DNA of 64,000 nt, from assembly GCF_000160755.1 (NCBI RefSeq), contig NZ_GG668576.1, forward strand, positions 792,271 to 856,270, read 5' to 3'. This DNA is from Proteus mirabilis ATCC 29906 (lineage in GTDB: Bacteria > Pseudomonadota > Gammaproteobacteria > Enterobacterales > Enterobacteriaceae). Below are positions 16,656 through 27,001 of this stretch, one piece after another; within the stretch, counting starts at the first letter, position 1, and every line of letters begins with the position of its first letter. Under the pieces are notes generated by a model. That model was given only the letters and a program-made list of their open reading frames with translations, had not been told where the DNA came from and did not search any database. The position numbers and the translations under genes were made by a program.

Positions 16656-17705
16656 CTAAGGAGTTGTTTCCTGTTTTGTCGTAATATTTGTCGATTGTGA
16701 TGGCAAACTTTCCCCAGAAACTCCTGTTTCAACATTTTCCTTTTTTGATTCGGGAAGCTTAGATGTAGAAGAAGACACAGACGAATTCGTCTGTGTATTT
16801 TCTCCGTTTTCTTGTGGGGTTTCTTGCCCTGAAAGCAGAGGTTTAATTTCTGATGCCTCTTTTATTGCTGGTGCAACCCGCTCATTTTCATGTACAATTT
16901 TCTTTTCTTCCTGCTTAGTTAAAACTAATATACTGATCCTTCTATTCGCCGGAGCAAAACCATCCTCTTTTACTAAGTGAACAGTTGATGCCATACCTAC
17001 AACCCGTAGTACTTTCCATTCTGCAAGCCCTGCACCAATAAGTTCTCGACGAGATGCATTGGCTCGATCCGTTGATAACTCCCAGTTACTGTATTTGAGT
17101 GCACCACTCGCATAAGGAATATCATCGGTATGACCTGATAAACTGATTTTATAAGGCGAGTCATTTAGTATTGGCGCTATCGCAGTTAAAATATCTTTCA
17201 TATAAGGTTCAACAGTGGCACTACCAACTTTAAACATTGGCCGGCTTTCTTTATCTATAATTTGGATACGTAAGCCTTCGTCCATCATGTCGATTAATAA
17301 ATGAGGTTTTAAATCTTTTAAGCGAGGATCTTGTAAAATAACTTGCTCTAAATTCTCTTTCAGTTTACGGAATTGCTGTTTTTCATTGAGCTGTTTATCT
17401 TCGACACCTTTTGGCAGTACATCACCTTCGTTATACACAGGATCACGTCCTCCCCCTGGTATCGGGTTTGTCACGTCTCCACTAACGCGGCCTTTTTCAA
17501 TGGCAACTTTTAGAGGTGTGCGAAAATATTCAGCAACACGAGTTAACTCTTGAGGACTAGCGATAGAAAGTAACCACATCACCAGAAAGAAAGCCATCAT
17601 GGCAGTCATAAAGTCAGCGTAAGCTATCTTCCACGCACCATGTTGTGCGTTGTGCTGTTTTTTCCCTCGCTTTTTAACTCTGATTATCTGTGAATTACTT
17701 TTCAT
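16656..17705 (-). CDS. motB: Flagellar stator protein MotB
   Basis: A 349-residue proton-channel stator subunit that anchors MotA to peptidoglycan. The single membrane helix follows a basic N-terminus and contains the proton-binding aspartate Asp31 ([20 protein letters not shown], in part). The OmpA-like peptidoglycan-binding domain ([22 protein letters not shown]) occupies about residues 150-275. A Ser/Thr/Glu/Gln-rich C-terminal tail of about 70 residues makes it longer than E. coli MotB (308). It starts 2 bases after motA ends. Confidence 0.96.
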
Positions 17706-17707
17706 AA

Positions 17708-18601
17708 TTACTCTTCTTTCATTGCATCAGGATTTGCCTGCATCGGTGTCCGTACCTGACGTACATGTTCTTCCAATTCAATAAATGAAGGTCTGTCTGC
17801 CAGAAAGAGGGTCTTACGACCAAACTCAACCGCTATCTGTGGTGCATATCCATTCATGCTAGATAACAGGGTGGTCTTGATGCACTCCATCATTTTCATT
17901 TGTTGACTAGAGCGTTGTCTGATACGAGAGGCTAATGGTGAAACAAAGCCATAAGCTAATAAAATACCTAAGAAAGTACCTACCATTGCGTGACCAATAA
18001 GTGCCCCCATTTCCCCAGCAGGTCTATCGGCAGCACCTAGCGCATTAACCACCCCCATAACCGCGGCCACAATACCAAATGCGGGTAATGAATCGCCCAT
18101 CGTAGAGAGCCCCGCCGCAGGTACTTCACTTTCTTCTTCAAAAGTGGCAATTTCTTCGTCCATTAGCGCTTCAATTTCATAAGGATTCATATTCCCCGTC
18201 ACCATCAAACGCATATAATCAGTAATAAAACTGAGCATATAAACGTCTTTCATAATGCGAGGATATTGGGAAAAAATGTCACTTTGTTGTGGATTTTCAA
18301 TATCTCTCTCTAATGCCAACATGCCGTTTTGGCGCGCTTTAGACAGCAAACGAAACATTAATGCCATTAGATCCATATACATCGCTTTATTGTAGTTAGT
18401 GTTACGAAGTAATTTCGGTAGGATTTTTACCGTTGATACGATCGCACGACCATTATTACCTACAACAAAAGCACCGATACCGGCACCAAAAATAATTAAA
18501 AATTCAGCGGGTTGATATAATGCGCCTAGATGTCCACCTACGAGGGTAAACCCTCCGAGGACAGCACAAATCACCACGATATATCCTAAGAGTACTAACA
18601 C
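17708..18601 (-). CDS. motA: Flagellar stator protein MotA
   Basis: 297 residues; four membrane segments (about 2-22, 33-51, 170-190, 201-221) with the large cytoplasmic loop between the second and third. Conserved MotA blocks: the [17 protein letters not shown] segment containing the essential proline, and the end [12 protein letters not shown]. It pairs with MotB to form the proton channel that drives rotation. The start codon is GTG ([10 protein letters not shown]), as in E. coli motA, 6 bases after AAGGGAT. It lies 134 bases after flhC. Confidence 0.96.
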
Positions 18602-18683
18602 GCGATATCCCTTTAGCTAATTTCGTTATAGAGAGAATGGCGAACATAACCGCAAGGAGATAGGAGGGGAAGAGGAAACAACT

Positions 18684-18713
18684 CAGGTTATAGAGTCTTT
18701 AATCTATAACCTG
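18684..18713 (-). terminator. Inverted repeat after flhDC, possible terminator
   Basis: A perfect 10-bp stem (CAGGTTATAG at 18684-18693, CTATAACCTG at 18704-18713) with a 10-base loop, 22 bases beyond the flhC stop. Read leftward the tail is only moderately U-rich (AGTTGTTTCC), so termination may be partial and allow read-through into motAB. Confidence 0.55.
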
Positions 18714-18735
18714 ATATTTAACTTTCAATCTCGAA

Positions 18736-19317
18736 TCACATTGCAAACTGTTCAAGACCATCCAACAGTTGTAAGTTAATATCGGCAGGATTGGCGGAAA
18801 GTTTACGTTTTTTTATTGCCCGAGATGGAGGCTGACAAAGACTACAAACATAATTACTTGCAGGCTGATGTGCGTGTGTAATAAATGAACCATTACATTT
18901 GGTACATACAGAAAGTTGTAACATACCACTTTCAACAAAACGAACTAATGTCCATGCTCGTGTTAGTGCTAAAATAGGTTCTTGATCTTTAACGGGTGGA
19001 CATTGTTCTAAATATAAACGATAGGCTTTTACAACAGCTTCAACACCTACGCTCCCCCCGCTTTTTAATAAAAAGCGGTAAGCATTATAAAACATTGAAG
19101 AATGGATATTTTGTTCCCATGTCATAAACCAATCTGTTGAAAAAGGTAGCATACCTTTAGGAGGAGGGCTTCCTCTTAATTCTTTGTATAATTTAATTAA
19201 ACGCCCTCGACTTAATTGCGTTTCGCTTTCAAGCATTTGTAAGCGAGCACCTAAGGTGATTAATTCCATTGCTAGGCGAATATCTTTCGCCTCTCGGACG
19301 ATACTTTTCTCACTCAT
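18736..19317 (-). CDS. flhC: Flagellar master regulator subunit FlhC
   Basis: 193 residues, as in enteric FlhC. With FlhD it forms the FlhD4C2 activator of class 2 flagellar genes; in Proteus this complex is also the master switch of swarmer-cell differentiation. The zinc-binding cysteines are present in two pairs, CTKCNGSF and CSLCQPP (about residues 138-160). It starts 2 bases after the flhD stop. Confidence 0.97.
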
Positions 19318-19319
19318 TG

Positions 19320-19670
19320 TTATGCCCGTTTCTTTGTAGCAGAGGTATCATGTTCCGATAGTTGACGGAACAAGTTAGAAGAAAGAAGGATACCAGTATG
19401 AATTTGTTGCAAATCATCCACTCTGGATTCTTTAGTGAGTTGTTCTATTGTTTCGCTGTCTTCAAACCGGAAATTACAGATTAGTTGGTTTGTTTCAGCC
19501 AACTTAACCAATTGAGGCAATGTTAGCTCTTTTAGTGCATCAGCCATAGAATCGCTGATACCCAGTCTAAACATTGCGGAAGCCTTTTCTTGGTTAATTA
19601 ACCTCTGCGCCAAAAGCAAATACGATAAATTTATGTCATAAATATGCTTAAGCAATTCAACCGTACTCAT
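19320..19670 (-). CDS. flhD: Flagellar master regulator subunit FlhD
   Basis: A 116-residue helical protein typical of FlhD ([21 protein letters not shown], in part). It partners FlhC. The start lies close to an AAAGAG sequence, and the preceding leader is rich in GGA triplets on the transcribed strand (two within 19682-19690), possible CsrA/RsmA contacts. The upstream control region is unusually long (see 19671-22990). Confidence 0.96.
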
Positions 19671-19705
19671 CTCTTTACATCCCGTCCGATTATATTGAAC
19701 AAAGA

Positions 19706-19728
19706 GGATCTTGTTTAAAGTAAGATCC
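19706..19728 (-). promoter_or_regulatory. Stem-loop in the flhDC 5' leader
   Basis: GGATCTT (19706-19712) pairs with AAGATCC (19722-19728) around a 9-base loop, about 36 bases before the flhD start and inside the likely mRNA leader. It could shape translation or carry GGA sites for CsrA/RsmA. Role is inference. Confidence 0.45.
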
Positions 19729-19970
19729 CGAGGAAATTAATATAAATGTATATTGAATTTCCAGGCCCCATTTTATGAATATGACTCGTAGTAACACTAC
19801 CTTGTATTACTTGATTACGATCATTTCAAAAAGTAGCGAGAAAAACATTTAAATTAAAAAGGATTTTAAATGCTCGCCAATATATCACGTTAAGAATAAT
19901 CCTAACGAGATAACTTTACTCCTTAATGATTAAGTTATTCAACGGATAAAGTAGTCTAATTTAAATACTA

Positions 19971-19986
19971 TGTGAGTTACATCACA
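19971..19986. promoter_or_regulatory. CRP-cAMP box upstream of flhDC
   Basis: TGTGA-GTTACA-TCACA, a perfect match to both half-sites of the CRP consensus with the required 6-base spacer. It is about 300 bases before the flhD start. CRP activates flhDC in E. coli from a site in its promoter; a matching promoter here would give a long leader. The -10 element could not be fixed. Confidence 0.75.
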
Positions 19987-21484
19987 AAAAGATAATCATT
20001 ATTATGGAATTAGTTCATTAACTATTCAAGTAATATTAGTAATAAAACTTGCTGAGAATTAATAAGCGAATCTACCCAAATTAAAATATTAATGATAATT
20101 TTTTATTTTATACGATCTATTAAACTTATAAACCTAAAAATACAGCATAAAAAATTGACAAATCTAAAATTGAAGTTTTTTTCGATCACAGTAACATATA
20201 TTGCCATAGCTCCTCCTCATCTTTGTCTGAACAAAGCACTTGTATTTAATAAATATTTCTATAGATATAGTTTTTTTAGTCATTTACCGAAAACACCATA
20301 AATGATCACTTTTTATTTACAATTGGCATAAAAAACAACCAATCATAATTAATTTGAGTTATCTAATTTTATAAATTAATTAAATAAAAAAAATTACACT
20401 TAAAATTCATAAAGATAAAGCATAACACTCTTACATTAGCAGGATAAGTTATACAAAATTAAATTCCTAGTTATGCATCTTACCTTATAAATTATTGAAT
20501 ATTTATTTCTATCACATAAAAGTTTTATTAATAAATAATTAAAAATTACTAATCAATAACTAAAAGTGCAAAATAATAAAGCTATATAACTCTTTATGCG
20601 TGTTTTACCGAACAAAGATTAATCAATATAAAAAAACATGACAATACAGGTAAGATTTATTTATGGTTTTTACGTAACAATCAAATTACTTACCAACTTT
20701 TTTTAGAAAAATAAATATAAATCCATAGGAGAAAAAACTTCATTTAAAAATATAAAGTAGCAATAATAACTTTATTTACCCAATTAAATTCGATAAAAAA
20801 AATATATAATATTTGACTTAAACTTAATATAAACAAAAATAATTTATTTTTTATATTTCAGCCATTACATTTATATAAAAAAATAAAAACACATATAAAT
20901 AAAAAAACAGGCTATTATTTAAATAACATAGTATCAATAAGTAAAAAAAACAGATTGATTTTATTAAAATAATAAATAATTAATTTATTATAAATAATCA
21001 GTGTGATTTTTTTATTTCTTATCCGTTATTCTGATAAAAATAGACTACAAATGAAATAACTATTTCATTTTCAGCAAAAAAGTTTTACCGATCTCTTCTT
21101 TCAAAATGATTGAGACATAGAAAATTTAGAATGGAAATTCCAACTTACTCATTTGCAATTTGATCAATCCCTATCCTGCTTTAACGCTCACCACCTAAAT
21201 ATTAACATTTGTATAAATCATTTATCCAATGTCAATATTAACAACTATTTTTGATCAAAATAACCTCTTATTGCCTACTCAATCATCATCATTAATAAAC
21301 TGTAAAATAGCAAATGTTACTTTTTTTATATATGACAGATAAGATAGCTTAATTTACGACCAAAAATAATACGTTTTTTATTTTTATTTGTCTTTTTTTT
21401 AAGCATGTTTTCCGATGGTTTGAGAAGAGTAGCCTTAGCCATTTCTTAGCGCTAATCAGCTAATATCAATGCTTAACAAAAGAG

Positions 21485-21628
21485 ATGATGGGTTCTTCTA
21501 AGAAAGGTATTGATAAAAAGACTGCTTTTTTAAACAAAAAAGCAAACTTATTTTTATCATTTTTATTTATTGTGATATTGATTATCATCAACATTACTCA
21601 AATAAAGAGTAGAATTGGTGGGAAATAA
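21485..21628 (+). CDS. Possible small single-span membrane protein
   Basis: A 47-codon frame beginning with two ATGs. A basic N-terminal half (KKGIDKKTAFLNKK) leads into a strongly hydrophobic stretch (NLFLSFLFIVILIIINIT) and a short basic tail (KSRIGGK). That layout resembles small inner-membrane proteins. The ribosome site is poor (AAAAGAG almost touching the ATG), and AT-rich DNA yields such frames by chance. Part of the coding DNA is also a nested palindrome (21511-21559). Reported as a candidate only. Confidence 0.22.
   Translation: MMGSSKKGIDKKTAFLNKKANLFLSFLFIVILIIINITQIKSRIGGK
21511..21559. repeat. Nested inverted repeat
   Basis: Outer arms TGATAAAAA (21511-21519) and TTTTTATCA (21551-21559) enclose inner arms TGCTTTTTT (21523-21531) and AAAAAAGCA (21536-21544) with a 4-base loop. 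It could extrude as a cruciform or act as a weak terminator. No function assigned. Confidence 0.5.
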
Positions 21629-22889
21629 CTTTTTGACAGACAACACACAATAAGCAGATTGATATAACAAATTTATTCAAAATAGTTATTTATCACTATT
21701 TTTTATCATAAAAACAAATAACCTCAGTTACGCAACTCATTACTCAACGATCTCATTTTTATGTAACAAATAAGATAAAAATATTGTTAGCCATCTTTCT
21801 GTCACCATCAACTATAATTATTTACGTAACAACGCCCAATAACATGAGCAATAGTTTAGAAGTCGATTAGCCTTTTATCGACCATGTTCTTTTTGATTCT
21901 CGCTAACCTTTAGTATTTTCTTTTCCCCGTACTTTTACTTAATCTTTTTAATCATTTTTGTATCATGATATAATACGAAAAATAAGCCTCTAATTATTTC
22001 TAATAGAAATTACAATGGTGCATTTATTTCGTTATTCGATGATTTTTTTCTTCTATAAGTCAGACTCATCTTCTTGATAAAGATATAAATAATGTAATAT
22101 TGAAATAGATATTTTATACAATAAATAGATTAGTATGTTTTTTCAACCAGTATAATAAGATTACTTATTGGTAGCATTTCCCCTACAGCTTGTTTACAAA
22201 AAAGAATTTATATCCTAATGATATGTATCAACAATCAACACTTCCCCCCATTCATCAGCTTTACTGTAGCCCCCTGCTGTGTCATCTACACAACTTTTCT
22301 CCTCCCCTGACTTGCTTTAAGTGCACTTTTATCAAAAATATTTCTCAAAAAGCAGTAGGTTAACGATCGTCAAATAAAGAATAATGATAAATAATTCATC
22401 GAATATATTGAAATTGTTTGAGAATATCATCGAGTGATATGTACGACACCAAAGTTTTCAATAGAGGCATGTAAGTAAATGCATCTTGTCTTAAGCCCTT
22501 TAGTAACGATTTTGTGTGCTAGGACAATTAATAGACTCATCAAATGGGTTTTTAGTAGGAAAGCCTACCCGCCTACTCAGCTTAACATAATTTTAAAATG
22601 CGTTTTTTGATTTAAAATAAGTTTCCATTGATAAATGGTTTTTTATTATAGATAACTTTATTCTTTCATCTAAACAAAGATTGATGATACATGTTATCGA
22701 TCTTATTCAGCTATAAACATAGTTTCACAATGAATAATTACACATATGAAATAGGTTACCTTTAACCACCAGTATTAATACTTAGTTAATTTTCTATTAT
22801 TTATAATGCTAAACTGTATTAAATAGCGTTTAAAATAAGCTAAATTCCCTCGTTTTCAGTTATTGTTTTATATTCTACTTTTGTTGATA

Positions 22890-22944
22890 TTATCCCCACT
22901 ATTCTTATAAAACACATTAACAAGCTCTATTGCTGTGGGGATAA
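22890..22944. repeat. Inverted repeat beyond mgtC
   Basis: TTATCCCCAC (22890-22899) and GTGGGGATAA (22935-22944) form 10-bp arms around a 35-base spacer, about 50 bases after the mgtC stop. There is no U-tract, so a standard terminator is unlikely. TTATCCCCA differs by one base from the DnaA box TTATCCACA. Confidence 0.45.
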
Positions 22945-22990
22945 CCTCTATTTATACTCACAAAGTATTATATTTTATATCCATAAAGTA

Positions 22991-23689
22991 TTAAGCAGGA
23001 TGCTCAGAAGCAATTTTCCAATTAATTGCACTGACACTTTTTTCTAAACTTATCCTGCAAACAATGGCTTCTATCTCTTTTTGCTCAGCTGGGGTAGCCA
23101 ACACTTCAGCACAAACTTCTAATTGACTAGGCATTGGTGTATCTGCGCTACTTAATGATTGCAATCTCACATGTAAACCGTTTATGGCTTGCAAAATAAG
23201 TGTTCTTACCAAAACTTCATCGTGGGTATCACAAACAATACGAATAGAATAGCGTTGTTCAATATCTGTCGCTTGATATTGCGGTTGGGCATTTATTCGT
23301 TGAGCCGCTTCCCGTAATAGAATATTGGCACAAAGAATAAGCAATGTCGCTACGGTAGCAAGTGGATAGAGTCCAAGTCCACATAACACACCAATGCCCG
23401 CAGAGCACCAAAGTGTCGCCGCGGTATTAAGACCTCGAATATTCATTCCTTCGCGCATAATCACCCCTGCGCCTAAAAAACCAATACCAGAAACCACTTG
23501 TGCAGCAATCCGTCCTGGGCTATCGGGTGAAGTTTCAATGGAGCTTAAGATAAATACCGCAGCACCGGTCGCCACTAAAGCATTGGTGCGAAGTCCTGCC
23601 ATTCTTTGACGCCATTGTCTTTCGGCACCAATCAAAGCACCAAGACACATTGCAACAACCAAATTTAAGATATAAGGAGTCATAGCCAT
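22991..23689 (-). CDS. mgtC: MgtC family protein
   Basis: About 232 residues, the size of Salmonella MgtC (231). Four to five membrane segments lie in the first ~125 residues, with the family blocks GALIGAERQWRQRMAGLRTNALVATGAA (shown in part), GFLGAGVIMREG and GLNTAATLWCSAGIG. A soluble ACT-like domain makes up the C-terminal third. MgtC proteins support growth in low Mg2+ and inside hosts and modulate the F-ATPase in Salmonella. The frame extends to 23710, but GGAGG 8 bases before the ATG at 23689 fixes the start. No mgtB follows. An attenuator-like leader precedes it. Confidence 0.88.
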   Translation of the reverse strand: MAMTPYILNLVVAMCLGALIGAERQWRQRMAGLRTNALVATGAAVFILSSIETSPDSPGRIAAQVVSGIGFLGAGVIMREGMNIRGLNTAATLWCSAGIGVLCGLGLYPLATVATLLILCANILLREAAQRINAQPQYQATDIEQRYSIRIVCDTHDEVLVRTLILQAINGLHVRLQSLSSADTPMPSQLEVCAEVLATPAEQKEIEAIVCRISLEKSVSAINWKIASEHPA

Positions 23690-23715
23690 TTTAATTTCCT
23701 CCATAAACAATGGCT

Positions 23716-23738
23716 AAAAAAACACGCCGTTATACGGC
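23716..23738 (-). terminator. Attenuator terminator in the mgtC leader
   Basis: Read leftward: GCCGT (23738-23734), 3-base loop, ACGGC (23730-23726), then GTG and seven U residues (23722-23716), ending about 15 bases before the mgtC ribosome site. A terminator placed between a leader ORF and its gene suggests attenuation. An upstream CCGTT (23760-23756) can pair instead with AACGG (23731-23727), which would break the terminator stem. Confidence 0.65.
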
Positions 23739-23768
23739 TAATGAAGTAATACAACAACGGATCTTTGG

Positions 23769-23816
23769 CTACAGCAATCTAGGAGGAGGAAATAAGGAGA
23801 AAAAAACATAGCACAT
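23769..23816 (-). CDS. Proline-rich leader peptide of mgtC
   Basis: A 15-codon ORF, MCYVFFSLFPPPRLL, preceded by AGAGGTGA at ideal spacing from its ATG. Three consecutive proline codons (23789-23781) sit near the end and the stop lies 30 bases before the attenuator stem. In Salmonella the mgtA and mgtCBR leaders encode short proline-containing ORFs (mgtL, mgtP) whose translation controls read-through; this ORF has the same layout but a different sequence. It is probably a cis-acting regulator rather than a working protein. Confidence 0.62.
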   Translation of the reverse strand: MCYVFFSLFPPPRLL

Positions 23817-23902
23817 AAAATCACCTCTTAGTAATAAGAGCATCTCAAGGTTAGTGCGATTCTATGTAAAACGAGGTTCAAGAAGTGCACTGCCCACCGG
23901 TA

Positions 23903-23935
23903 GGTAAGCAGTTTTAGCGGAGAAAACGGCTTACC
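23903..23935 (-). promoter_or_regulatory. Long hairpin upstream of the mgtC leader ORF
   Basis: GGTAAGC (23903-23909) pairs with GCTTACC (23929-23935), and the inner arms GTTTT (23911-23915) and AAAAC (23923-23927) extend the stem past one mismatch. No U-tract follows. It may be the 5' part of the mgtC leader RNA or a transcript end; unassigned. Confidence 0.4.
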
Positions 23936-24053
23936 AATTTATTTTTTGCATTAATTTACTACTTTGCGTATCCATCTGTTTTCTCTTCGTCAAAATTTGG
24001 CTGGTAGTATAAATAGGCCATTGCACAATGTAAATGAACGCTTCCTAAACCAA

Positions 24054-24248
24054 TCATTTTTGTTGTACTGGTCGAACAAAAGTGCCTTCACCACCTTCTT
24101 TTTCATTAAAAAACCAAATACCATTCGGATATTCAGGCAGTGAAACCAAGTACATAATGCCTTCATTAAATTCTTCAATCAGTAAAATGGTTCCTTGACG
24201 ATCTTCACAGCCATCCGTTTTTACTACAACATGATCATTAACGTTCAT
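24054..24248 (-). CDS. Small conserved-looking protein, function unknown
   Basis: 64 residues, no signal or membrane segment. It starts [13 protein letters not shown] and has a compact, probably beta-rich pattern ([26 protein letters not shown]). AGGAG sits 6 bases before the ATG, so translation is well supported. It lies between csp and mgtC on the same strand. I do not recognise a named family. A frame overlapping it at 23990-24178 has no ribosome site and is not called. Confidence 0.7.
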
Positions 24249-24300
24249 TTTTACTCCTGATAAAAATTCTCATTATCTTCTTTTTATTTTACCCATAAAG

Positions 24301-24331
24301 AAAAAGCCTGCCACCAGAAGGTGACAGGCTT
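24301..24331 (-). terminator. Terminator after the csp gene
   Basis: AAGCCTG-C-CACC (24304-24315) pairs with GGTG-A-CAGGCTT (24320-24331), 11 pairs with one mismatch and a 4-base loop; leftward tail TTTCTTT after the stem's own TT. It lies 25 bases after the csp stop. Confidence 0.88.
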
Positions 24332-24356
24332 GAAGAAAATTTTTAAAAGGCTTTTA

Positions 24357-24569
24357 TTACAGAGCTGTTACGTTAGCAGCTGCTGGACCTTTTGCACCGT
24401 TTTCAATTGTGAATTCTACGTTCTGACCTTCAGCCAGAGTTTTGAAACCGTTACCTTGAATGGCAGAAAAGTGAACGAATACGTCTTTGCTTCCGTCTGC
24501 TGGAGTAATAAAACCAAAGCCTTTAGACTCGTTGAACCACTTAACTTGACCTTTCATTTTGTCAGACAT
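24357..24569 (-). CDS. CspA-family RNA chaperone (CspC/CspE-like)
   Basis: A 70-residue single cold-shock domain. RNP1 (KGFGFITP) and RNP2 (VFVHFSAIQ) nucleic-acid-binding motifs are intact. The body ([20 protein letters not shown] in part, [15 protein letters not shown]) is closest to E. coli CspC/CspE, while the 70-residue length and the MSDKM start resemble CspA. Such proteins melt RNA secondary structure; CspC/E members are usually expressed at normal temperature. About 450 bases of leader and divergent promoter DNA separate it from ylaC. Confidence 0.93.
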
Positions 24570-25024
24570 GTGACTTTCCTATATATCAATAAAACGTTGC
24601 CTTCTCGGCATCTACTGGCCTGAACTACCTATAACTTATGGGCACACATGAAGAAAACGGTCAAAAAGCGATGCTGTTTAAAACTCATTAACTTAGAATG
24701 TCAATCATAAATCAGGTCTGTATTTAGGCCTTACTCATTAACGCATGAGACAGGGTTAATAGCAATAGTTTTATGCATTGAAAGATTAAAAAAATGCAAA
24801 TTGCACATAAAAAATACAAATTCGCCTCTATTTTTGTCACTGTGTATAAAATTTATTTGATATTTTATAGCAATTATTAACAGCAAGTAGGAATAGTCTT
24901 AATAGACTAACAATAACAGTTAAGCGTCGAATTTAAAAAAACTGTTCTATCTGCTGATCCTGTCTCCATGATAATCTATTCTTAAGAAACAAATTTGCAA
25001 CATTCATCTTTTAAGGTATTTACA
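24570..25024. other. Divergent csp-ylaC control region
   Basis: 455 bases holding the divergent promoters. On the minus strand a TTGACA lies near 24700, roughly 130 bases before csp, which would fit the long leader common in csp genes; a convincing -10 is not fixed. No gene is supported. Confidence 0.5.
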
Positions 25025-25531
25025 ATGAATGTATTAAAAGACATTTTAGAGCGTGATTTAGCACGTATTAATGCCGCAGAAAAGCGTGATGGCAAACCAC
25101 ACTTTAATAGCCAATTTTTAAAAAATCATATTTGGCTTTGCGTCAGTATGGTGTTGTCATATTTATTACTGGCCGCTTTGCTTATTTACTCTCCTTACTT
25201 TGGGGTCATTTCGCTGACTCTTTTCACTTTGATGTTTATTGTGATGGCAGGAATACTGCTATTTGATATCAAACCTATTTATAAGTTTGATGATATCGGC
25301 GTTCTTGACCTTAGAGTTTGCTATAACGGCGAATGGTATACTTTTGAAAAATTATCTGATGAAGCGATTAATGAGATACGCCAGCACCCGGCTATCCCAG
25401 CGCAAATAAAAGAAGACATCAATGACATTATACGCACAAAACAAGAGATACACTTTTATGACGTGTATTTAATCGCATTCGATCCCATCACCAAACCGAT
25501 TTCGTCAGAAAAATTATCACCCCAAGTCTAA
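25025..25531 (+). CDS. ylaC: YlaC family inner-membrane protein
   Basis: 168 residues. Two membrane helices (about 35-55 and 60-80) and a soluble C-terminal domain with DIGVLDLRVCYNGEWYTFEK, the clearest match to E. coli YlaC (IDVLDFRVCYNGEWYN). The frame extends back to a TTG at 24995; the ATG at 25025 with AAGG 9 bases upstream gives the family-like start. Function not established. Confidence 0.85.
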   Translation: MNVLKDILERDLARINAAEKRDGKPHFNSQFLKNHIWLCVSMVLSYLLLAALLIYSPYFGVISLTLFTLMFIVMAGILLFDIKPIYKFDDIGVLDLRVCYNGEWYTFEKLSDEAINEIRQHPAIPAQIKEDINDIIRTKQEIHFYDVYLIAFDPITKPISSEKLSPQV

Positions 25532-25543
25532 TACTATGAGAAA

Positions 25544-25590
25544 TTCTCCGTGTTATTGCACACAACACGGAGAACCTTAACCATTTTTTA
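25544..25590 (+). terminator. Terminator after ylaC
   Basis: An 11-bp stem (TTCTCCGTGTT at 25544-25554, AACACGGAGAA at 25564-25574) with a 9-base loop; a T6 run follows 8 bases later. Confidence 0.7.
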
Positions 25591-25642
25591 GCCATATTGT
25601 CCATAAACCAATCAAACAGTTAATTAATCTATTTTTTAACGT

Positions 25643-25671
25643 TGACACCCTGATATATCATCGCTATTATG
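25643..25671 (+). promoter_or_regulatory. Promoter of tRNA-Asn copy 1
   Basis: TTGACA (25643-25648), 17-base spacer, TATTAT (25666-25671), followed by a GC-rich discriminator (GCGCC). Near-ideal sigma-70 promoter. The discriminator type fits stringent control, which is inference. Confidence 0.88.
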
Positions 25672-25696
25672 CGCCTCGTTCTCAAGAGAACACAAT

Positions 25697-25772
25697 TCCT
25701 CCATAGTTCAGTCGGTAGAACGGCGGACTGTTAATCCGTATGTCACTGGTTCGAGTCCAGTTGGAGGAGCCA
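25697..25772 (+). tRNA. tRNA-Asn (anticodon GTT), copy 1
   Basis: A 76-base tRNA with encoded CCA. Acceptor stem TCCTCCA/TGGAGGA, D arm GTTCAGTCGGTAGAAC, anticodon arm CGGACTGTTAATCCG (GTT anticodon), and T arm CTGGTTCGAGTCCAG. It matches enteric asnT-type genes except in the acceptor stem. A palindrome (GTTCTC-AA-GAGAAC) lies in the 5' leader. First of four identical copies. Confidence 0.98.
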
Positions 25773-25783
25773 AATTTAGAAGA

Positions 25784-25805
25784 GCCCGCTTTATGCGGGC
25801 TTTTT
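25784..25805 (+). terminator. Terminator after tRNA-Asn copy 1
   Basis: GCCCGC (25784-25789), 5-base loop, GCGGGC (25795-25800), then T5. Repeated almost exactly after copies 2 and 3. Confidence 0.92.
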
Positions 25806-25951
25806 GCTTTTCTAAATAAACTAGTCCCTACTAGCCTTTCATGCTCATCAGCGATATCTATATATAACTATTTATTTTTTATACTTTTTTATCAAAAAAA
25901 CAACAAAACGGTGCACTCTTGAGCAAACAAACATTTTTTTTGTTTTTTTGC

Positions 25952-25980
25952 TTTACAAGGGAAAAGAGGATAGCTATTAT
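25952..25980 (+). promoter_or_regulatory. Promoter of tRNA-Asn copy 2
   Basis: TTTACA (25952-25957), 17-base spacer, TATTAT (25975-25980). The downstream leader is almost the same as in copy 1. Confidence 0.85.
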
Positions 25981-26006
25981 TCGCCTCGTTCTCACGAGAA
26001 CACGCT

Positions 26007-26082
26007 TCCTCCATAGTTCAGTCGGTAGAACGGCGGACTGTTAATCCGTATGTCACTGGTTCGAGTCCAGTTGGAGGAGCCA
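26007..26082 (+). tRNA. tRNA-Asn (anticodon GTT), copy 2
   Basis: Identical in all 76 bases to the copy at 25697. Its leader palindrome reads GTTCTC-AC-GAGAAC. Confidence 0.98.
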
Positions 26083-26093
26083 AATTTAGAAAA

Positions 26094-26115
26094 GCCCGCT
26101 TTATGCGGGCTTTTT
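26094..26115 (+). terminator. Terminator after tRNA-Asn copy 2
   Basis: Same GCCCGC/GCGGGC stem and T5 tail as copy 1. Confidence 0.92.
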
Positions 26116-26363
26116 GCTTTTTTTAATGCCCATTATTTCTTTTCTTATTTATCACTTTTATTCATTGTCTAATTTTAAGACACTGCTGCAAAATGATCTT
26201 TAAGTGACTCTTTTCTTACTTATGATATGGCAGAATGTGGCTTTTTAGGGCGGTAAGAATATCAACACAGTATATATACTGTGCCGAAATCGGTATACTT
26301 TTAGATAAAACACATAAATCAGTTATTTTTTAACCACTTAAGCTATTATTTTATTTTTTTTAC

Positions 26364-26392
26364 TTTACAACTGCCCTCTCTCTCGCTATTAT
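26364..26392 (+). promoter_or_regulatory. Promoter of tRNA-Asn copy 3
   Basis: TTTACA (26364-26369), 17-base spacer, TATTAT (26387-26392). Confidence 0.85.
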
Positions 26393-26418
26393 TCACCTCG
26401 TTCTCAAGGGAACACAAT

Positions 26419-26494
26419 TCCTCCATAGTTCAGTCGGTAGAACGGCGGACTGTTAATCCGTATGTCACTGGTTCGAGTCCAGTTGGAGGAGCCA
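26419..26494 (+). tRNA. tRNA-Asn (anticodon GTT), copy 3
   Basis: Identical to the other copies. The leader palindrome is GTTCTC-AA-GGGAAC, in which one pair becomes a G-U wobble, so the RNA hairpin is still possible. Confidence 0.98.
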
Positions 26495-26505
26495 AATTTA
26501 GAGAA

Positions 26506-26527
26506 GCCCGCTTTATGCGGGCTTTTT
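26506..26527 (+). terminator. Terminator after tRNA-Asn copy 3
   Basis: GCCCGC (26506-26511) and GCGGGC (26517-26522) with a T5 tail, as in copies 1 and 2. Confidence 0.92.
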
Positions 26528-26694
26528 GCTTTTTAGCCGATAGCATCCCACACTTAGCATGCTGAAAAATAAATTTTTCTCTGTTTCACCCTATAAATTC
26601 CAGCATCTTTTTCATTATCTTGTTCATTATTCGCTGATAATTGATGCAACTTGCTGTTTATCTATCCATTTAAACAAATATCTACGATTGACCT

Positions 26695-26723
26695 TTGACA
26701 TCTCAATTTTACCACTATATGAT
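26695..26723 (+). promoter_or_regulatory. Promoter of tRNA-Asn copy 4
   Basis: TTGACA (26695-26700), 17-base spacer, TATGAT (26718-26723). The leader differs from the first three copies and has no palindrome. Confidence 0.85.
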
Positions 26724-26742
26724 ACACGCCACTTAATGATGT

Positions 26743-26818
26743 TCCTCCATAGTTCAGTCGGTAGAACGGCGGACTGTTAATCCGTATGTCACTGGTTCGA
26801 GTCCAGTTGGAGGAGCCA
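26743..26818 (+). tRNA. tRNA-Asn (anticodon GTT), copy 4
   Basis: The 76-base gene is identical to copies 1-3, but both flanks differ: a unique leader, and no GCCCGC-type terminator after it. It is probably the older or separately placed member of the array. Confidence 0.98.
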
Positions 26819-26923
26819 TTTCTATTAGCATTACCCTCGTAACTATTTGATTTTATTCTCTGTTTTCCCTCACACACAATAAAAAATACCATTAAAAAGG
26901 TAGCTATTTAATCGTTTTCGTAT

Positions 26924-27001
26924 TACTATTCATTTCCGGCTTGACTATCCAGTCCAATCCAATCGTTGATCTTTCGATTTTCCTAAGACACACGGAGCCG
27001 G
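26924..27001 (+). promoter_or_regulatory. pyrC leader with possible CTP-sensitive start switching
   Basis: A -10-like TACTAT (26924-26929) is followed 7 bases later by CCGG (26936-26939) as the likely start region. CCGGCT (26936-26941) can pair with AGCCGG (26996-27001), which overlaps the GGAG ribosome site of pyrC. In E. coli and Salmonella pyrC, starting at C when CTP is high makes a hairpin over the ribosome site, and starting at the later G avoids it. The -35 is weak. Confidence 0.5.

Follow-up and report, generated by a model that had tools for sequence, protein, structure and literature searches.

What does the short proline-codon open reading frame in front of the lone mgtC gene of Proteus mirabilis do, and is it an invention of this lineage or part of a leader that is already known? 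We approached this question in a stretch of 64,000 nucleotides (hereafter the window), in which mgtC and its leader lie on the minus strand. The gene itself (22991–23689, ATG at 23689) encodes MgtC proper, as it matches the equivalog model PRK15385 with 334 bits (cut-off 255). Reading 5' to 3', a PhoP-box-like repeat is followed by a predicted promoter, the small ORF mgtM, two alternative stems (A and B), the small ORF mgtP, a hairpin with a run of seven U (U7), and mgtC. As in mgtCBR-type leaders, two upstream ORFs (uORFs) sit between the predicted promoter and mgtC. We conclude that the element is very probably the two-uORF leader (mgtM and mgtP) that Salmonella has before mgtC and, by homology, a tandem attenuator. 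The initial annotation, which had described the second of the two ORFs, overlooked mgtM along with both stems and the PhoP-like promoter sequence. On the other side of mgtC, about 2.7 kb (20302–22990) without an ORF of 60 residues or more separates the gene from a small ORF at 20092–20301, and elsewhere in the window four tRNA matches of equal score, with starts roughly 310 to 410 bases apart, occupy positions 25697–26815.

The proline-codon ORF, MCYVFFSLFPPPRLL, occupies 23769–23816. As originally annotated, it starts with an ATG at 23816 behind a GAGG ribosome site (23827–23824), runs for 15 codons to a TAG stop (23771–23769), and contains three consecutive proline codons, CCT CCT CCT, at 23789–23781. 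We looked for comparable uORFs by regular expression, imposing the form L[FL]PP[GP] on mgtP, upstream of MgtC orthologues drawn from 149 family genomes, 20 genus genomes, and the best 80 of 577 named records. Such a uORF precedes mgtC in all 21 family orthologues of at least 60% identity, is intact upstream of mgtC in 20 of 20 genus genomes, and was found in six of seven enterobacterial records within the named set, that is, the best 80 of 577. Shuffling the leaders by dinucleotide 900 times never produced one, nor did any of 73 other MgtC-like loci contain one, the true upstream region being examined in 68 of these; at the other five (L048, L060, L078, L104, and L108) the match began elsewhere than at base 1501, so that something other than the true upstream region was scanned. 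The initial annotation was right in linking this ORF to the regulation of mgtC and in regarding its proline codons as conserved.

The core L-(F/L)-P-P-(P/G) is common to the window and 44 other leaders, and the LFPPP of the window stands at the homologous position, as in relatives such as L023 (MFMFKNTLFPPPSTRR), which appears to be Salmonella-like and whose peptide length fits the 16 residues of Salmonella mgtP (PMC8092293). A proline-rich ORF has been stated to be conserved before mgtC homologues (Lee & Groisman 2012, PMC3641672), and the legend of Fig. 1B in that paper includes Proteus mirabilis in the mgtP alignment. Judged by its sequence, the feature is the mgtP of Salmonella-type mgtCBR leaders, where it supplies the proline codons; it is already known and not an independent invention, and the earlier description of its peptide as unrelated has to be given up in view of the shared core and of that legend. 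No further paper on the Proteus mgtC leader was among the matches listed for P. mirabilis with mgtC or for mgtP with TrmD.

The regular-expression scan found no L[FL]PP[GP] mgtP before mgtC in Winslowiella (L038, 73% identity) or in the more distant L024, L025, and L027, while in L026 the uORF is present and mgtC is broken; among the weaker family MgtC matches, the scan covered L024–L027 only. An mgtM-like start is kept in L038, L024, and L025, which lack mgtP, and inspection by eye suggests that in Winslowiella the start of mgtP passes directly into that of mgtC. The spacing between mgtP and mgtC, usually about 70 to 95 bases, is longer and insertion-like in L036, L051, and L012 (230, 209, and 245 bases), and the spacer insertion of Yersinia proxima, one of these three, resembles an ERIC element.

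We tabulated 45 leaders, 43 of them distinct: the identical pairs are L008/L037 and L033/L116, and the latter joins a locus of the same genus as the window (L116) with P. cibi (L033). The regular expression set the residues of mgtP and left the codons free. Across the 45 leaders, leucine is written with six codons and phenylalanine with two (one locus has leucine instead), the second proline uses all four codons, and the third core position is P in 27 and G in 18; EF-P dependence is classically associated with the triplets PPP and PPG. All 45 mgtC leaders write the first proline as CCT, and just three of 20 representatives (one per genus) do so for the second. The core of mgtP is thus conserved at the level of the peptide, and one codon within it is conserved letter for letter. 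The invariance of CCT possibly reflects the m1G37-requiring decoding of CC[C/U]-[C/U] that has been reported for proline codons in the mgtA leader (PMC6335274), or else pairing with the Shine-Dalgarno sequence of mgtC.

Upstream of mgtP lies an mgtM-like uORF (MDTQSSKLMQKINW, 23931–23975) with an ATG start. In Salmonella, mgtM starts with UUG (PMC6908480) and has 12 residues (PMC8092293), and its peptide is not conserved according to Lee & Groisman 2012 (PMC3641672). Our mgtM search imposed D or E as residue 2 and restricted residue 3, and we draw nothing from those residues. The arm GCTTACC can pair upstream with GGTAAGC (stem A, 5' arm 23929–23935); in a longer form it can instead pair with the downstream GGTGGGCAGT (stem B, 3' arm 23889–23898). 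The shared arm ACTGCTTACC (23903–23912) provides both the 3' arm of stem A (23909–23903) and the 5' arm of stem B, making the two stems mutually exclusive. In alignment A1, which holds 28 of the 45 leaders, 98.0% of cells are paired in stem A, with 9 double-sided cells and double-sided changes at three of seven pairs; for stem B, 98.2% of cells are paired, with 22 double-sided cells and double-sided changes at five of ten pairs. The covariation scores of both stems were reached by none of 500 shuffles, and both fell when the partner was slid along. Two of five measures are weak for stem A, its count of double-sided pairs being matched by 36 of 500 shuffles and its pair types by 201 of 500. A change between T-A-T and C-G-C carries through all three strands of the two stems. 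RNAalifold, run on the 28 leaders, returned stem B as its sole structure and none around mgtP, and an Rfam search, at the gathering score over the window and permissively over 23600–24080, gave no leader match above the gathering score. Judging from their position, stems A and B would correspond to the published stems of the mgtM part, as the mutually exclusive pair expected of an mgtM attenuator. With mgtM and both stems in place, the RNA can no longer be called simpler than that of Salmonella.

The leader is preceded by a direct repeat, GGTTTA-N5-CGTTCA (24035–24051), that resembles the PhoP-box consensus; such a box recurs at all 20 genus loci and at 23 of the full set of 45. The predicted promoter (24006–24034) consists of a -35 TTTACA, 17 nt, and a -10 TATACT, scoring 10 of 12. 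Its TTTACA/-10 pair is present at 20 of 20 genus loci; promoter-like sites in the upstream stretch number 6 against 6.2 in shuffles, and there is no excess.

How, then, could mgtP act on mgtC? The initial annotation proposed a simple intrinsic attenuator, in which CCGTT just after mgtP (23760–23756) pairs with the 3' arm of a terminator as an antiterminator and a stall on the prolines leads to read-through. Every element of this proposal is present in the sequence: the small hairpin GCCGU-AUA-ACGGC (23726–23738, 5 bp, -5.4 kcal/mol), the U7 behind GUG (23716–23722), and CCGTT itself. The predicted folding, however, works against it. Bare pairing of CCGTT with AACGG is worth -1.7 kcal/mol and has a probability below 0.0001; the same CGTT stretch is taken up, in another register and ahead of the same U7, by a hairpin of 11 bp (CGUUGUUGUAU..GUAUAACGGCG, 23725–23759, -10.4 kcal/mol), beside which the small hairpin is minor. 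With an assumed footprint of 15 nt, the 11-bp hairpin is predicted on the ribosome-free RNA as well as for ribosomes halted at the second proline or at the stop codon. For the small hairpin to prevail (probability >0.9), a stop-codon ribosome has to reach at least 17 nt from the first P-site base; at 16 nt or less the probability of that hairpin stays below 0.05. Toeprints commonly lie near 16 nt, and the 17-nt reach that the small hairpin requires is borderline. The predicted alternative states each leave a hairpin before U7, and the choice between them hangs on the footprint assumed. Freeing that stretch gives the stronger hairpin ahead of U7; in this model, a ribosome stalled at the prolines would thus promote termination if anything, contrary both to the proposal and to what is known from Salmonella. 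Moreover, the exact hairpin with U7 occurs in none of the 19 other genus genomes. Taken together, we consider the simple attenuator improbable and the terminator/CCGTT switch unsupported.

The mutual exclusion of terminator and antiterminator by ribosome position, which defines an intrinsic attenuator of the trp type, is not seen in the predictions, where both states keep a hairpin before U7. Over 2.2 kb, four sites resemble terminators, where shuffles give 1.4 (sd 1.2). A loose terminator scan at -4 kcal/mol or better is passed by 16 of 45 loci and by two of 20 in the genus, namely the window and L129, which passes through a different hairpin (-6.0); L119 nearly passes (-3.8). Seven of the 16 passing loci owe this to a TGTGC..GCAC hairpin, and six-T tails are present at L012 and L035 as well; such loci indicate that the loose scan fails to single out real terminators. 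The published alternatives of stem-loops C/D and E are not recognizable in the window, and hairpins that fit them are present in the Salmonella-like loci. It is possible that U7 marks an intrinsic terminator specific to this species.

An alternative is that translation is the main target of the Proteus leader: the codons for Leu-Phe-Pro-Pro in mgtP would serve as an anti-Shine-Dalgarno of mgtC, and a ribosome sitting on them would unmask the Shine-Dalgarno sequence. In the window, ATTTCCTCC within mgtP (23785–23793) offers 9 nt of complementarity to the Shine-Dalgarno stretch GGAGGAAAT (23694–23702), AUUUCCUCC lying against GGAGGAAAU before mgtC. At 18 of 20 genus loci and 25 of all 45, no better complementary stretch exists elsewhere in the leader. 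Assuming a 15-nt ribosome footprint, the mean predicted unpaired fraction of the Proteus Shine-Dalgarno sequence rises from 0.09 without to 0.66 with a ribosome on the prolines, with a rise of more than 0.1 at 21 of 21 loci (one duplicate). Elsewhere (24 loci, one duplicate) it moves from 0.11 to 0.14, and a rise above 0.1 is predicted at three of 24; at the Salmonella-like loci it stays closed because a local hairpin masks it. The invariant CCT-CC also speaks for this reading. Against it, the start codon in the window is predicted to close (0.02 unpaired) in the stalled state while the Shine-Dalgarno sequence opens (0.97), and in a comparison over 20 genera the own pairs do not outdo swapped ones, 0.66 of permutations being equally good, which led us to reject coevolution at that scale. 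Among ten Proteus loci, 0.04 of permutations are as good as the own pairs, and compensatory changes in this pairing were not seen. We therefore regard a mainly translational action as a tentative reading and lean against it. Slightly more doubtful still is a double duty of the Proteus codons, which would be both the EF-P- and proline-dependent stall site and the anti-Shine-Dalgarno of mgtC, with CCU-CC as a trace of the RNA-level job or of m1G37-dependent decoding.

A search of 149 genomes with the stem B pattern matched 31 places, spread over 27 of the genomes: 13 lie before mgtC, 7 before mgtB, 10 have no uORFs, and 1 was not read; a reversed-pattern control gave seven matches in six genomes, and since the pattern misses divergent leaders such as those of G060, G068, G087, and G093, these counts are lower bounds. 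In at least seven of the 149 genomes (L145, L149, L150, L151, L157, L164, and L165), an MgtB-type ATPase follows immediately on the whole leader (mgtM, stems A and B, and mgtP), with PRK15122 as the best match of the N-terminal parts of the ATPase. These seven leaders likewise read CCT CC, and the seven genomes have no MgtC match of at least 60% identity. By eye, L151 retains an apparent decayed mgtC start, and several of the mgtB-leader genomes have a further short ORF beginning MD before mgtB that resembles the published mgtQ. The window is the mirror case: its genome has mgtC and no MgtA/MgtB-type ATPase over the family cut-off, and tblastn with two N-terminal fragments found no MgtB remnant beside mgtC in 17001–27000. 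The leader thus stays while the gene changes, with mgtC alone in the window and mgtB alone in at least seven genomes. The missing ATPase, together with a 3' half of the leader that is unlike that of relatives, could suggest a decayed relic, with both uORFs fallen out of use in this lineage. This is highly improbable, however, given that mgtP is intact throughout the genus genomes and that stems A and B can form in all eight genus members of alignment A1.

We return to the tandem mgtM-mgtP attenuator, whose working can be outlined by analogy with Salmonella. Low Mg2+ would start transcription through PhoP, mgtM and its stems would respond to ATP, and translation of each small ORF would likely decide which RNA stems form. 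A ribosome slowed on the mgtP prolines, by low charged tRNA-Pro or low EF-P, would favor mgtC expression; in Proteus only, the LFPP codons might mask the mgtC Shine-Dalgarno sequence until a ribosome sits there. In Salmonella, genetic work with start-codon and stop mutants and on proline speaks for this picture and a stall favors expression (Lee & Groisman 2012, PMC3641672), EF-P acts through mgtP (PMC5299641), and a Rho-antagonizing element with a rut site has been reported in the leader (PMC7858274). The comparison of leaders adds testable details to this picture, namely an invariant first proline codon, a third residue that is P or G, and a covarying A/B switch.

Among known systems, trp-type intrinsic attenuators share with this leader a peptide containing a run of one amino acid, but a functioning pair of terminator and antiterminator could not be demonstrated here. 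The mgtL leader of Salmonella mgtA likewise places leader-ORF proline codons in Mg2+ homeostasis, with CC[C/U] conserved (PMC6335274), although it is an unrelated proline-rich ORF in the words of Lee & Groisman (PMC3641672). Compared with Salmonella mgtCBR, Proteus has a lone mgtC without mgtB, its mgtM starts with ATG, and a U7 hairpin follows mgtP, whereas the Salmonella stems are unlike intrinsic terminators (PMC3641672). It is nonetheless this leader that the Proteus element matches in its two uORFs before mgtC, the consecutive prolines of mgtP, the alternative stems, and a putative PhoP-type promoter (PMC3641672).
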